Of a stretch of 9,529 nucleotides of DNA, positions 3,400-9,529 are shown piece after piece. Where the stretch lies: positions 1 to 9,529 of the forward strand of contig WQTY01000054.1 of NCBI GenBank assembly GCA_009786045.1, written 5' to 3'. A program made the translations under genes and the position numbers. The notes beneath the pieces are model-generated. The model was not told the DNA's origin, did no database searches, and worked only from the letters and a program-made list of their open reading frames with translations. This stretch comes from Pseudomonadota bacterium. GTDB lineage: Bacteria > Myxococcota_A > Bradymonadia > UBA4248. Within the stretch, counting starts at the first letter, position 1. Each line of letters starts with the position of its first letter.

Positions 3400-3540
3400 T
3401 TTATGCGGGGGAGCCAGCTCCCCCGCGCCCCCTGCGCGGGCAGATATTATCTGCCCCTACGACGTATCGCTTGTGGGTAAAGTGGCAGAGTGTATCGTTT
3501 GTGGCCACATGCCCTGCATGGTGTGCTGAGAGAAGTCATC
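3400..3540 (-). repeat. Two-hairpin intergenic element, copy B (inverted, after recJ)
   Basis: Read on the minus strand, 3540 to 3400 follows copy A: CTTCTC, then a GCATGTGGCCACAAACGATAC stretch, TTTACCCACAAG, a hairpin region, CAGGGGGCGCGGGGG and a terminal hairpin before ATAAAAAA. The terminal hairpin is a perfect 10-base-pair stem, GCGGGGGAGC with GCTCCCCCGC (3405-3426) and a 2-base loop. Its stem sequence differs from copies A and C at both sides, so pairing is kept. Hairpin 1 is missing and a GTAG-headed palindrome sits in its place. It fills the first part of the 377-base recJ/ilvE gap; I see no gene there. T-rich DNA precedes the stem on the plus strand, so it is not an evident recJ terminator. 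Confidence 0.75.
3438..3460 (-). repeat. GTAG-headed REP palindrome 1
   Basis: On the minus strand GTAG (3460-3457) directly abuts a perfect 9-base-pair hairpin, GGGCAGATA, one base, TATCTGCCC (3456-3438). GTAG at the 5' foot of an imperfect palindrome is the established layout of REP sequences linked to RAYT transposases. It shares GTAGGGGCAGA and TCTGCCC with the palindrome inside hsdR (7122-7145). Confidence 0.7.
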
Positions 3541-3644: not shown

Positions 3645-3739
3645 ATTTTGGCCAAAATGATGTACTTCGCACTCTACCCACAAGCAATGCGCAGCATTGC
3701 AGGGGGTGTGGGGGAACTCGTTCCCCCACATAAATAAAA
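3645..3739 (+). repeat. Two-hairpin intergenic element, copy C (upstream of ilvE)
   Basis: This is a direct copy of the element before recJ. The left part is more diverged (AATGATGTACTTCGCACTC, then TACCCACAAG). Hairpin 1 is GCAATGC, loop GCA, GCATTGC (3684-3700). Hairpin 2 is TGTGGGGGAA, loop CTCG, TTCCCCCACA (3707-3730), then TAAATAA. Compared with copy A, the second stem is identical while its loop differs, and the first stem carries a C-G to A-T paired change. It ends about 25-30 bases before the ilvE start. With copy B it forms an inverted pair around 3541-3644, where I see no gene. Confidence 0.8.
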
Positions 3740-3762
3740 GAAAGAGGAGTGAGATAGCAGTG

Positions 3763-4875: not shown

Positions 4876-5775
4876 ATGAGCAAGGTATCCATAAGATTCT
4901 ATCATGACAGAGAGGTCCGCGCGGTTTGGGATGATGAAAACGCCAAATGGTGGTTTTCTGTACTTGACATTGTCGGCGTGCTTCGAGGCGAAAGCGATTA
5001 CACGAAGAATCGCAACTATTGGAAATACCTGAAGGCGAAACTGAAACGCGAAAACCATCAAGTGGGTAGTGTGACTACCCAGTTCAAATTTACCGCACCC
5101 GACGGAAAAAAACGTGTCGCAAATGTTCTTGACTATGATGGCATCATTGCACTTGGAAAAATTTTCCCGAGCAAGAAAGCCAATCGCTTCATCGAGTGGT
5201 TCACGTTTAGCGATGAGACGATTGATGGGAAGAGCAAGTCCAAGGCTTATGCGCTGTTTGAGAGTTCACTGATCGACACCATAGAAGTCGGCACGGTTAA
5301 GGGGTTACAGCAAATCCACGGCTATCTGTTTGGTGGTCTCTATGATTTCGCAGGTCAAATCAGGACGCTGAACATTGCAAAGGGCGGTTTTCAGTTCGCG
5401 ATGGTGCGATTTCTACCGGAAACCTTAAAAAATATAGAAGCGATGGCGGAAAACACTTTTGACGAAATCGTAAAGAAGTATGTGGAGATGAACGTTGCCC
5501 ATCCCTTTATGGAGGGAAACGGCAGAACGACGCGCATCTGGCTCGATCTGATGTTGAAAAATAACCTTAGTTTGTGTGTGGATTGGAGCAAAATCGGCAA
5601 AAATGACTATCATGCTGCGATGAAGAAAAGCGTGGTGGATCCTACGCAGATCAGAGAACTGCTTAAATTTGCCTTGACGGATAAGATAAACGACCGCGAT
5701 GTATTTATGAAAGGCATAGATTATTCCTACTATTATGAGCAGGAAGATGACGTGATGGGAGATGACAGGGGATGA
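4876..5775 (+). CDS. Bro-N domain fused to class III Fic AMP-transferase
   Basis: This is a two-domain, 299-residue protein. Residues about 5-110 resemble the Bro-N domain of phage antirepressors and DinD: VRAVWDDENAKWWFSVLDIV, a YWK segment, then FTAPDGKKR and an IIALGKIFPS tail. Bro-N is thought to bind DNA. Residues 124-289 match compact Fic proteins like Neisseria NmFic. They show QQIHGYLFGGLYDFAGQIR, the target-docking flap KGGFQFA, and the complete catalytic motif HPFMEGNGRTTR (209-220). A C-terminal helix carries SYYYE (Ser284, Glu288), equivalent to the self-inhibitory [S/T]xxxE motif of class III. Residue 289 is Gln where Gly or Asn is usual. Class III Fic enzymes AMPylate DNA gyrase and topoisomerase IV and regulate themselves, so no separate antitoxin is expected. 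The target here is inferred. It starts 6 bases after the ilvE stop without a clear Shine-Dalgarno site, and its base use is unlike ilvE. This suggests an insertion boundary and possible read-through expression. Confidence 0.88.
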   Translation: MSKVSIRFYHDREVRAVWDDENAKWWFSVLDIVGVLRGESDYTKNRNYWKYLKAKLKRENHQVGSVTTQFKFTAPDGKKRVANVLDYDGIIALGKIFPSKKANRFIEWFTFSDETIDGKSKSKAYALFESSLIDTIEVGTVKGLQQIHGYLFGGLYDFAGQIRTLNIAKGGFQFAMVRFLPETLKNIEAMAENTFDEIVKKYVEMNVAHPFMEGNGRTTRIWLDLMLKNNLSLCVDWSKIGKNDYHAAMKKSVVDPTQIRELLKFALTDKINDRDVFMKGIDYSYYYEQEDDVMGDDRG

Positions 5776-5826: not shown

Positions 5827-8800
5827 TCAATCTACAGTCACACCACAATATTTCTCAAAAAACTTTGTCATCTTATCAATGACAGCTTGCTTCTTTTCAG
5901 CACGGCCGCCCCTGCCAAAGCGCGAAACGGGTGGCAGAAGTTTATCCATAGCAGTGCCGGTTGTTTTTAGGACGCCATCGCGGAAAGCCATGTCGATAAA
6001 ATGTCGGGTTTCTTCGTCTTTGAGATTTTCGTCAGCTATCAGCGCGGATAAGTCTTGCTCTTTTTGCACCTGTACAAAGCATTGCCAATCTTCGTCTACG
6101 TGCGTTGATACATTGACTTGTTCGACAAAGCGCTCAATCAGATCTTTTTTGCTTCGCAATGCCATGCTCGAAGTGACGGCCTTATGAATAGAAGCGAGTA
6201 TGTTTTTGTCTTCGCAGTTTGAGGCATGGTATTTTTCGACGAGCAAGAGGATGTAATCAATATTGACTTCGATTTGCTTGATAAGTTCGAGCTCAAAAAC
6301 AATATCATCATTGATGTTTTCTTTGTTGGCGTCGGTTTTGGGGCGAAGCGCCTGGTAGAGGTCGATATAGGTACTTTGGTAATCCTGAAAATCTCTGTCA
6401 GTGAGGATTTCATTTCCTGCAAACTCGTCGAATGCCGTGAGGATGTTTTTGATCCGAAGAATTGCGCTATATAAACGGATAAAATCTTTCTGCACTTCCT
6501 CCCCGACGATTGGCTCACCCATCGGAAATTGTGCCATAAGTTCCGCCATCAATTCGACATAGCCTGGTTTGTGTTCGCCATTTTGCTCGAACCCGTTGTA
6601 GTAATCCCTGTACGTTTTAAGAAGCACGATGCCGCCAGCATCCTTGTCGCCGAACAGGGCTATAGCATCGTCGGTCGCTTGTTTTAAGTCGCGGAAACAA
6701 ATGATATTGCCAAAGGTTTTGACGCTGTTCAGGATGCGATTCGTGCGAGAATATGCCTGAATTAAACCGTGATGCTTTAGGTTCTTGTCGACCCATAGGG
6801 TGTTAAGTGTGGTCGCATCGAAGCCTGTCAAAAACATGTTCACAACGATGAGCAAATCCACCTCGCGATTTTTTACTCGCTGCGAAAGGTCTTTGTAATA
6901 GTTTTGGAACTTATCCGACGAGGTATCATAATTCGTCTTAAACACGGTGTTATAGTCGGCAATGGCCGACTCCAAAAAATCGCGCGAGCTTTTGTCGAGC
7001 TTGTCGTTTTCGAAATCTTCGTCTGGCAATGTGTCTATTGGGTTGTCTTCTGGATCATCCTCGTTGGGGCTGTAACTGAATATCGTCGCGATGGTGAGGT
7101 TGTGGGGGGTAGGACTATTGGGGGCAGAAATTGTTCTGCCCCTACGATTTTGCCTCTTGAATTCTTCGTAATATTTCATCGCCATCGGGATAGAAGACAC
7201 GGCAAAAATCGAATTAAACCCCGCAACGCGCTGCCCTTTGAGGGCATAGAATTCATTGCGTTTCGTCTTTTGGTCGAAATGCTCAAGGATATAGTCGACA
7301 ACCGCGCGGATGCGCTCTGGTGACTCAAGTGCTTTGTTGGTGTCAATCGCCAGAACATCTTTGTCTGAAACATCCTCTTTCTGTTTGACCGTATTGATAA
7401 AATCGATGCGAAACGGCAGCACGTTGCCGTCATTAATGGCGTCTACAATCGTATACGTATGCAGCTTCTCGCCAAAAGTCTGTGGCGTTGTCTTTAGCAG
7501 TGCGCTGTTGTTTCCAAGCTTTGCACCGCTCGCAGCATTGACCGCAAAAATGGGCGTCCCCGTAAAACCGAAGATGTGGTAATGACGAAAGGCTTTGACG
7601 ATCTTTTGGTGCATATCGCCAAACTGCGAACGGTGGCATTCATCGAAAATGATGACGATATGCTTTTTGTAAATATCGTGTGCCTTACTTTTACTAACAA
7701 ACAGGCCAAGTTTTTGGATGGTCGTGATGATGATGCGGGCGCTTGGGTCTTCGAGCTGCTTTTGCAGCACCCGTGTTGACGTATTGCTGTTTGTCGCCCC
7801 CTTTTCGAACCGGTCGTATTCCTTCATCGTCTGATAATCGAGGTCTTTGCGGTCAACGACAAACAACACCTTGTCGACAGTATCAATTTTTGTGGCAAGC
7901 TGCGCCGTCTTAAAACTCGTCAGCGTCTTGCCGCTGCCCGTTGTGTGCCAGATATAGCCGCCTGCATCGGTTGTCCCTGTCTTTTTGTAGTTGGCCGAAA
8001 TGACGATGCGGGTCAAAATGCGTTCGGTTGCCGCAATTTGGTAGGGGCGCATGACAAGCAGCAATTCTTCACTGGTGAACACGCAATAACGGGTCAGGAT
8101 GTTTAACAATGTATGCTTGGCAAAAAATGTCTTCGTAAAATCGACGAGATCGGCAATTACCTTGTTATTTGCATCCGACCAGTAGGATGTAAACTCGAAA
8201 CTATTGCTCGTCTTTTTGCTCTTTCTGCGTTCGCCTTCGGCCAACTCTTTGATGTGTGCGTTACGGGTCGTGTTGGAGTAATACTTCGTACTCGTACCGT
8301 TGGAGATGACATAAATTTGCACATATTCATAAAGCCCGCTCGCTGCCCAAAAGCTTTCGCGCTGATAACGCTTAATCTGGTTAAACGCCTCACGAATCGC
8401 CACACCTCGGCGCTTTAGTTCGATATGCACGAGGGGCAACCCGTTGACAAGTATCGTCACGTCATAGCGAGCACCATGTGCTCCACCGCATTCTTCGTAT
8501 TGGTTGATGACCTGCAAACGGTTATTGTGGATGTTCTTTTTATCGATCAGGCACACGTTTTTCGTGCTGCCATCGTCACGTTTCAGAACCTGAACATGAT
8601 CATCCTGAATCTTTCTGCTTTTCTCGATGATGCCCTCATTGGCGCTCGCCAAACACTCGCCAAAGAACCGCCGCCATTCGTCATCTGAGAATGCAAAATC
8701 GTTCAACTTTTCGAGCTGTCGACGCAGATTCAACTTCAGAGCATCTTCGCAATTAAAGTACAGATATTCATACCCCTGTGCTTGCAGTTGTCTGATAAAT

Positions 8801-8913
8801 TCCTGCTCCAAATCCTCCTCGGATTGGTAACTGTCCGAACGGGCTTGTTCGGTTTCGTATTCGGCAACTACGGTCGCTTCGTCTGTGCTGGTGATGATGT
8901 TGTATTGGGTCAT
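5827..8913 (-). CDS. hsdR: Type I restriction enzyme R subunit (HsdR, EcoR124I-like)
   Basis: HsdR is the motor and nuclease subunit: with HsdM and HsdS it translocates DNA by ATP hydrolysis and cuts unmodified DNA. The 1028-residue product is full length. The nuclease domain shows Asp151, Glu165-Leu-Lys167 and the QxxxY motif at Gln179-Tyr183. The helicase core shows HTTGSGKT (323-330, Walker A), DECH (424-427), FTGTP (450-454), and a motif VI region HHGLIQAYSRTNRI (714-727). The rest is the helical C-terminal domain that docks on the methylase. All key residues are intact. The start MTQYN agrees with the family, though no clear ribosome site precedes it. Residues about 588-605 are encoded by an inserted GTAG palindrome. 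No hsdM or hsdS is visible; upstream lies a RAYT gene. It converges on the Fic gene with a 51-base gap. Unlike the HD gene on the same strand, it is not Gly/Val-poor, which fits a recent arrival. Confidence 0.96.
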   Translation of the reverse strand: MTQYNIITSTDEATVVAEYETEQARSDSYQSEEDLEQEFIRQLQAQGYEYLYFNCEDALKLNLRRQLEKLNDFAFSDDEWRRFFGECLASANEGIIEKSRKIQDDHVQVLKRDDGSTKNVCLIDKKNIHNNRLQVINQYEECGGAHGARYDVTILVNGLPLVHIELKRRGVAIREAFNQIKRYQRESFWAASGLYEYVQIYVISNGTSTKYYSNTTRNAHIKELAEGERRKSKKTSNSFEFTSYWSDANNKVIADLVDFTKTFFAKHTLLNILTRYCVFTSEELLLVMRPYQIAATERILTRIVISANYKKTGTTDAGGYIWHTTGSGKTLTSFKTAQLATKIDTVDKVLFVVDRKDLDYQTMKEYDRFEKGATNSNTSTRVLQKQLEDPSARIIITTIQKLGLFVSKSKAHDIYKKHIVIIFDECHRSQFGDMHQKIVKAFRHYHIFGFTGTPIFAVNAASGAKLGNNSALLKTTPQTFGEKLHTYTIVDAINDGNVLPFRIDFINTVKQKEDVSDKDVLAIDTNKALESPERIRAVVDYILEHFDQKTKRNEFYALKGQRVAGFNSIFAVSSIPMAMKYYEEFKRQNRRGRTISAPNSPTPHNLTIATIFSYSPNEDDPEDNPIDTLPDEDFENDKLDKSSRDFLESAIADYNTVFKTNYDTSSDKFQNYYKDLSQRVKNREVDLLIVVNMFLTGFDATTLNTLWVDKNLKHHGLIQAYSRTNRILNSVKTFGNIICFRDLKQATDDAIALFGDKDAGGIVLLKTYRDYYNGFEQNGEHKPGYVELMAELMAQFPMGEPIVGEEVQKDFIRLYSAILRIKNILTAFDEFAGNEILTDRDFQDYQSTYIDLYQALRPKTDANKENINDDIVFELELIKQIEVNIDYILLLVEKYHASNCEDKNILASIHKAVTSSMALRSKKDLIERFVEQVNVSTHVDEDWQCFVQVQKEQDLSALIADENLKDEETRHFIDMAFRDGVLKTTGTAMDKLLPPVSRFGRGGRAEKKQAVIDKMTKFFEKYCGVTVD
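7122..7145 (-). repeat. GTAG-headed REP palindrome 2, inside the hsdR frame
   Basis: On the minus strand GTAG (7145-7142) abuts GGGCAGAA, loop CAAT, TTCTGCCC (7141-7122), followed by further C residues. It shares GTAGGGGCAGA with the REP after recJ. It is translated as part of an Arg/Ser/Pro-rich stretch (about residues 588-605) between EEFKRQ and LTIATIFSY of HsdR, a known variable linker, and keeps the frame open. The insertion limits cannot be fixed without a relative lacking it; a plausible span is 7104-7146. Confidence 0.75.
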
Positions 8914-9057: not shown

Positions 9058-9529
9058 TCACGCCTGTATTGATTTTTTTGTATGAAAACGATCATTTAGC
9101 CATTTTATAGGATTGCGCTCTATATATCTCACAATTCGGTTGAATTCATCTTCATTGCGAATAATGCGGTCGTGAAACGACCGTTGCCATATGGAAAAAC
9201 CAATTTGCTTGCTCGTCATTGTTTTAAAACTTCGTACAAACGTTGAAATCAACGAGTGATGGACGTTGTTTACAACGTCCTCTGGTACGACTATTCCATC
9301 TCGTTCGACGTCCCTTCTGCTGCAATTGGATACAATCAAAATCATATGGATATGATTGGGCATAATGGCATACGTACCTAATTGGATGTCAGGATTACCG
9401 CCATTTTTCAAAATGGCCTCAGCGATCTTGCCATACGCCGATAATTTGATATTCGTCCCGTTCGTCCCGTTCGTCCCGTTCGTCCCGTTCGTCCCGTCGG
9501 TGTCCGCCGTTGGGGCCGTCGCCGTTGGG
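9058..9529 (-). CDS. REP-associated tyrosine transposase (RAYT, Y1/HUH family), 5' end outside the window
   Basis: RAYTs are single-domain relatives of IS200/IS605 TnpA that nick single-stranded DNA at REP hairpins. The frame is open from the right edge (9529) to the stop at 9058-9060; the start is not seen. Family features in order: IKLSAYGKIAEAI, then YAIMPNHIHMILIV with the HUH motif (HIH), a variable middle, STFVRSFKTMTSKQI, IWQRSFHDRIIRNEDEFNRI, and RYIERNPIKW whose Tyr is the likely catalytic residue. A start at TTG 9411 would discard conserved sequence, so the longer open frame is preferred. Upstream of IKLSA it encodes about five Gly-Thr-Asn repeats from a 9-base tandem repeat. It sits 144 bases upstream of hsdR on the same strand, next to one GTAG palindrome. 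Catalytic residues in the visible part look intact; whether the N-terminus is whole is unknown. Confidence 0.88.
   Translation of the reverse strand, partial: PTATAPTADTDGTNGTNGTNGTNGTNIKLSAYGKIAEAILKNGGNPDIQLGTYAIMPNHIHMILIVSNCSRRDVERDGIVVPEDVVNNVHHSLISTFVRSFKTMTSKQIGFSIWQRSFHDRIIRNEDEFNRIVRYIERNPIKWLNDRFHTKKSIQA
9261..9280. repeat. 20-base perfect palindrome within the transposase gene
   Basis: GGACGTTGT, two T bases, ACAACGTCC form a 9-base-pair perfect hairpin. It lies in the variable middle of the transposase, where it encodes part of PEDVVNNVHH. A smaller palindrome, CGTTGA-AA-TCAACG, lies at 9241-9254. Confidence 0.6.
9452..9496. repeat. 9-base tandem repeat, five units, in frame in the transposase
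   Basis: Five exact copies of TTCGTCCCG (9452-9496) are followed by degenerate GT/CCG-rich sequence up to the edge. On the minus strand it encodes Gly-Thr-Asn repeats. As the unit is a multiple of three, copy number changes would not break the frame. Confidence 0.9.

Follow-up and report, generated by a model that had tools for sequence, protein, structure and literature searches.

A dispersed GTAG-type REP carried in frame in the Type I restriction gene hsdR and likely inserted there as a short unit

GTAG REPs are described within genes of several species in the main text of Di Nocera et al. (2013, PMC3733652), being otherwise mostly intergenic. That text gives flexible linkers or loops as one reason why such copies might do no harm. 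It also reports that many REP-bearing genes belong to DNA repair and replication, and that Rickettsia palindromic elements insert in frame in genes. In-frame REPs inside tnpAREP genes of subclass 2.4 are described in the portion of Quentin et al. (2018, PMC6006769) consulted here, and in-frame REPs in RAYT genes were therefore rejected as a novelty. As far as these parts of the two papers go, the in-frame insertion of GTAG REPs is already known; what is new is the instance in hsdR and restriction enzymes as hosts. The words "restriction" and "methyltransferase" are absent from the main text of PMC3733652. No report of a REP or palindromic repeat in a restriction gene was found among the papers listed by the literature searches, and the supplementary gene list of PMC3733652 could hold one.

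The REPs described here share the GTAG foot with a hairpin, and the occurrence of intragenic copies, with those in the main text of PMC3733652; they differ in that their hosts include restriction enzymes and that the genome is uncultured. The consulted portion of PMC6006769 defines the REPs of subclass 2.4 tnpAREP by three G-C pairs at the stem base and by double-foot copies. Both features are found here, whereas hsdR is not a transposase gene. The Rickettsia palindromic elements, likened only by their description in the main text of PMC3733652, are also palindromes in frame in genes; the unit in hsdR is about 27 nt long and has a GTAG foot. Within the parts of the literature compared, restriction enzymes join the reported hosts of in-frame GTAG REPs.

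The window is the whole stretch of 9,529 nucleotides that was analysed, and it belongs to an assembly of 2,621,058 bases in 456 contigs with 82.56% completeness. Its relevant features are as follows.

3438..3460, minus strand: REP of the hsdR arm class, 23 nt long, in the intergenic spacer separating recJ from an aminotransferase gene
5827..8913, minus strand: hsdR, Type I restriction enzyme R subunit, open frame of 1028 aa, with profile and PDB matches
7117..7119, minus strand: AAT, 3-nt direct repeat on one flank of the block, from the sequence
7120..7146, minus strand: 27-nt block, the putative inserted REP, common to the best genomic match (C254, 96%)
7122..7145, minus strand: REP core within hsdR, GTAG foot and hairpin, from pattern search and fold
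7147..7149, minus strand: AAT, 3-nt direct repeat on the other flank of the block, from the sequence
9058..9528, minus strand: RAYT-like Y1 transposase gene (PF01797, 24.4 bits over a cut-off of 23), running off the contig end

The hsdR product scores 587.5 bits against TIGR00348 (cut-off 284.55) and contains the Pfam domains HSDR_N, SWI2_SNF2, T1R_D3-like, and EcoR124_C. HSDR_N, helicase, and C-terminal domains are thus present in a single chain, as in Type I R subunits. It matches the solved HsdR entries 4bec (886.6 bits) and 2w00 (886.2 bits), the latter of which we take to be EcoR124I HsdR. The frame stays open through the hairpin, as the initial annotation had read it. Codon usage is host-like on either side of the REP, and many columns are invariant in an alignment of 48 HsdR sequences that includes the window protein. 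hsdM (PF02384, HsdM_N) is present on contig C239, separate from the window contig; a search for hsdS (PF01420) in the 82.56% complete assembly gave no match. Convergent with hsdR lies a gene for a Fic adenylyltransferase (4876-5775; NF046029 above cut-off), which also shows a Bro-N match slightly below cut-off.

A GTAG hairpin with an 8-bp stem had been noted at 7104-7146, inside hsdR. The hairpin itself is present, but the part common to the genomic copies is only 7120-7146, and the stem in the DNA fold has 9 bp, with arms at 7121-7129 and 7134-7142. The single-strand DNA fold of the 43 bases 7104-7146 reaches -10.7 kcal/mol (z -4.59), and none of 200 shuffles was as good. The RNA fold around the hairpin also beats its shuffles (z -3.57, 0/200 as good). 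The GTAG-type foot stands at the base of a hairpin of 20-40 nt, as in GTAG REPs. The initial annotation was correct that GTAGGGGCAGA and TCTGCCC are common to this hairpin and the intergenic REP at 3438-3460.

The 65 nt around the site were searched against the own genome with BLAST, which gave 15 rows at E <= 10 besides the self match. The top one of these, on C254, covers 7120-7146 with 96% identity (E 3.4e-6). Other copies align over shifted ranges, 7121-7151 for C37 (90%) and 7118-7153 for C108 (84%), so the ends of the block are uncertain by a few bases. A 37-nt unit extending up to a second GTAGG (plus strand 7109-7113) is not preferred because the REP matches stop short of it and because its length is not divisible by three. 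The sole row covering 7104-7127 is a weak match on C39 (E 1.8). Five of the six frames of the 27-nt block are free of stops, including the hsdR frame, in which the block is read as RRGRTISAP (residues 590-598). The added segment had been placed at residues about 588-605; it does lie in a linker, which extends from 589 to 605 and of which the repeat is read only at the above nine residues.

The best 120 of 8000 scored HsdR relatives were aligned with the window protein. Between Q588 and L606, 115 of these 120 have seven residues and the window HsdR has 17, a net gain of ten residues, or 30 nt, against the norm. Such a gap in relatives is what the initial annotation had named as support for an insertion. 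The remaining five linkers have 8 (two proteins), 9 (one), 15 (P0018), and 16 residues (P0042). The site is indeed a variable linker, a loop whose length also changes by other inserts in P0018 and P0042 and which is longer than the consensus in 2w00. The P0042 insert starts earlier than that of the window and is longer overall. Its linker DNA (locus L026) has no GTAG hairpin and neither GTAGG nor CCTAC, and the insert was therefore rejected as a GTAG REP. The span from FKR to IATIF is 20 residues in the window HsdR, 16 in 2w00, and 10 in the family consensus. The 2w00 HsdR is of the same family, aligns over most of its length, and has a loop at the same place, which exceeds the family norm yet is without the repeat peptide. 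The insert falls within T1R_D3-like (565-742), presumably the second helicase domain. An AlphaFold2 model of HsdR was too weak for a fold search (mean pLDDT 55.5, pTM 0.33); its local pattern is helix-loop-strand, with a helix at 575-590 and a strand at 608-612.

The linker residues of the window were found in none of the best 120 protein relatives. At the DNA level, 83 hsdR loci were collected, consisting of the best 80 of 580 confirmed matches and L105-L107, with L105 being the window's own. Eighty of them, the own locus included, were read at the protein level (L035, L046, and L051 were left out), and the linker residues are absent from the 79 other loci read (of 82). The automatic linker count parsed 65 of the 83 loci, including the own one, and missed 18. 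A scan of the linker DNA of 64 other loci found the palindrome in none of them. Of the 65 parsed loci, only the own one and L092 have GTAGG or CCTAC in their linker DNA, and the L092 match is not part of the hsdR palindrome. Relatives from unrelated genomes with the same linker or palindrome, which would speak against an insertion, are thus missing from the 120 proteins, 79 loci, and 64 linker DNAs. The closest HsdR among the best 120 is 82% identical, and no near relative with an empty site was found there; for this reason, the exact ends of the insert are estimates. The residues following the block, NSPTPHN, are unlike LAEKNKN in the family, so more bases may have been replaced.

The palindrome belongs to a dispersed family. 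The arm-class pattern GTAGGGGCAGAN{0,30}TCTGCCC matches the genome with 24 strand-hits at 23 places and its backward control has 0; for the wider pattern GTAGGGGCN{6,24}GCCC, the strand-hits number 196 against 9, double-foot copies being counted twice. These many dispersed copies are characteristic of GTAG REPs and bear out the earlier expectation of other GTAG palindromes in the host. The GGG base of the arm and double-foot copies (C37 3566) agree with the REPs of RAYT subclass 2.4 as defined in the consulted portion of PMC6006769. The base preceding GTAG in 88 copies with enough flank is T in 46, C in 29, A in 12, and G in 1. Of these 88 copies, 11 are flanked by 3-nt direct repeats, where shuffled flanks lead one to expect 10.6; direct repeats of at least 4 nt flank 7, with about 3.6 expected. 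A target-site duplication as a general signature of the REPs is unsupported, since the 3-nt repeats equal the shuffled expectation and the longer ones are slightly above theirs.

Some copies are associated with other repeats. A larger palindrome, TATCGGC...GCCGATA between AGGGGGTAG and GCAGGGGG, is found on contigs C2, C9, C10, C22, C28, C29, C53, C148, and others; some of its copies have a REP at the tip and some have none. In the window, 1566-1645 and 3672-3751 form an 80-nt intergenic repeat pair, 85% identical, with hairpins of its own. The REP at 3438-3460 appears to be set in a related inverted copy, at the position of a small hairpin.

The wide pattern gives 91 strand-hits in total in seven other genomes of the same family. 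The counts against controls are 17/5 (G001), 24/12 (G007), 15/11 (G005), 29/13 (G002), 3/22 (G006), 1/10 (G003), and 2/27 (G004), that is, below the control in three of the seven (G006, G003, and G004). The GTAGGGGCAGA arm class is found in 0 of these 91 strand-hits, indicating that the REP insertion likely took place in the window's lineage. The REP expansion looks specific to this lineage in the comparison with seven genomes of the family. HsdR has a patchy distribution: of the 56 other genomes searched, 2 have a close relative. Two same-family genomes have a close HsdR, 69 and 64% identical, and neither carries the insert. The initial annotation proposed that the REPs spread after the arrival of hsdR; the absence of the arm class from the same-family hits and the patchy HsdR are consistent with this order, and the insertion would then postdate hsdR.

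The RAYT-like gene of the window scores 47 bits against NF047646, under the cut-off of 80, and 144 bases separate its stop from the hsdR start. The assembly has four Y1_Tnp matches, two on C239, one on C189, and one on the window contig; three of the four are on the contigs of hsdR and hsdM. The C239 RAYT gene is directly downstream of hsdM.

It is quite probable that the dispersed GTAG REP carried in frame by hsdR entered the gene as a unit of some 27 nt through the action of a RAYT-type transposase. Movement may have proceeded via single-stranded REP DNA and a RAYT, of which candidate genes lie beside hsdR and hsdM. Together, the 27-nt block and one 3-nt flanking AAT would account for the gain of 30 nt; this sum fits and is no proof, because flanking repeats are near chance genome-wide. 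The REP could persist since the gain of 30 nt is divisible by three, no stop interrupts the block in the hsdR frame, and the loop tolerates changes in length. The added peptide is probably without a function of its own.

GTAG hairpins in other genes were surveyed with three patterns in 288,495 fetched bases, where they occupy at least 152 distinct places. At 104 of the 152, the REP is crossed by some frame that extends at least 20 codons to either side, and 32 lie no more than 60 bases from the end of a contig or stretch. For coding signal on both sides of the REP, hsdR comes first. Pfam was run on 22 spanning frames in addition to hsdR, one being a longer version of an earlier frame. Five of the 152 places are in four homology-backed genes, although genes without known relatives could escape the Pfam scan: hsdR (1), a Type ISP restriction gene on C85 (2), the C239 RAYT (1), and a C254 protein (1). 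The earlier proposal that the REP was tolerated only at a permissive site calls for modification, given these in-frame copies in other genes.

The end of the Type ISP gene (L184:1631-2125, C85, minus strand) contains three in-frame GTAG-type hairpins, one of them degenerate by eye, before the PF18135 domain. Its linker from LHxxYE to the next conserved block is 56 residues long; the eight other aligned rows that could be measured, two of which are overlapping loci of one contig, range from 17 to 40. The C85 contig starts at LHVNYE of this gene. In the C239 RAYT gene (L238:978-1595, minus strand), two in-frame REPs, one degenerate, are between the HuH and Y motifs. The C254 protein (L236:146-2011) is encoded by a frame of 622 aa, has its REP in a linker region, and shows no Pfam match. 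Its N-terminal part is matched in all seven other same-family genomes, and a single one of these relatives, L283 (478 aa), was aligned in full, poorly around the linker. A REP insertion in the C254 protein is the weakest of the four cases. The frames of FkbM (C1), NamZ (C281), and a beta-lactamase-fold protein (C28) were not counted, as the REP is well ahead of the domain and thus possibly upstream of the true start. A 766-aa ORF on C319 was not counted either, having no Pfam match and an odd composition.

Among the other explanations, copying by recombination or template switching at the hairpin, without a RAYT, is possible, though we do not favor it. Several REPs are at the tip of the larger palindrome that also exists without a REP, and the flanking duplication signal is not clear. 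Against it, the GTAG foot is kept and G almost never precedes it, which suits a foot-recognising enzyme, and RAYT-like genes are present in the genome. It is doubtful that restriction loci are preferred sites for REPs to land and be kept, with RAYT genes inside the Type I locus seeding in-frame hairpins into nearby genes and so steadily lengthening restriction enzymes (hsdR, and the Type ISP enzyme with its three copies) at loops and altering their activity. That the palindrome arrived with hsdR after an insertion in another host is improbable. The patchy distribution of hsdR is compatible with it, but the palindrome residues are in none of the best 120 protein relatives, and the arm class abundant in this genome is absent from the hits in the seven same-family genomes.

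A decaying orphan hsdR, in which the insertion would be meaningless, might explain why hsdS was not found; the open 1028-aa frame, the host-like codons, the many columns invariant across the 48 sequences, and hsdM on another contig make it quite improbable. Retention of the hairpin to tune the hsdR mRNA or protein, for example by holding restriction in check, could draw on the strong RNA fold and on the second restriction gene with in-frame REPs. It is nevertheless very unlikely, given that the hairpin is not seen in relatives and that other genes bear in-frame copies too. The linker does vary in a few relatives, but 27 nt agree with genomic copies at 96%, which leaves a chance palindrome in a variable linker a negligible probability. 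The preferred reading is the insertion of a REP unit by a RAYT-type transposase. In hsdR, the addition of codons by a repeat to an intact-looking enzyme can be read clearly, with a defined unit, a known family length without the repeat, and solved relatives. As restriction is measurable in a laboratory strain, the neutrality of in-frame REPs becomes directly testable.

The relatives of the C239 RAYT also bear on hairpins kept in frame. The peptide VGAX..Z(C/R/Y)P is found in 115 of the 119 best relatives (of 7994 scored, query excluded). X and Z can be encoded by reverse-complement codons in 112 of these 115, where 5000 shuffles reached 80 at most; with the commonest pair set aside, the count is 34 of 37. 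The relatives were chosen by likeness to a loop-bearing query, and shuffling leaves their relatedness in. The pairing only supports that hairpins may be kept in frame in these genes, in agreement with the published work.

Four of the 82 other loci (L026, L054, L099, and L104) have a RAYT-like MPN/DHxH motif close to hsdR; a fifth match, in L048, has stops around it. L026 combines the motif with the long linker insert without a GTAG hairpin. A frame in L099 reads VGADLRVCP, as expected of one REP class. In the window, the RAYT-like frame contains a nine-base tandem repeat, TTCGTCCCG, at 9452-9497, near the contig end.
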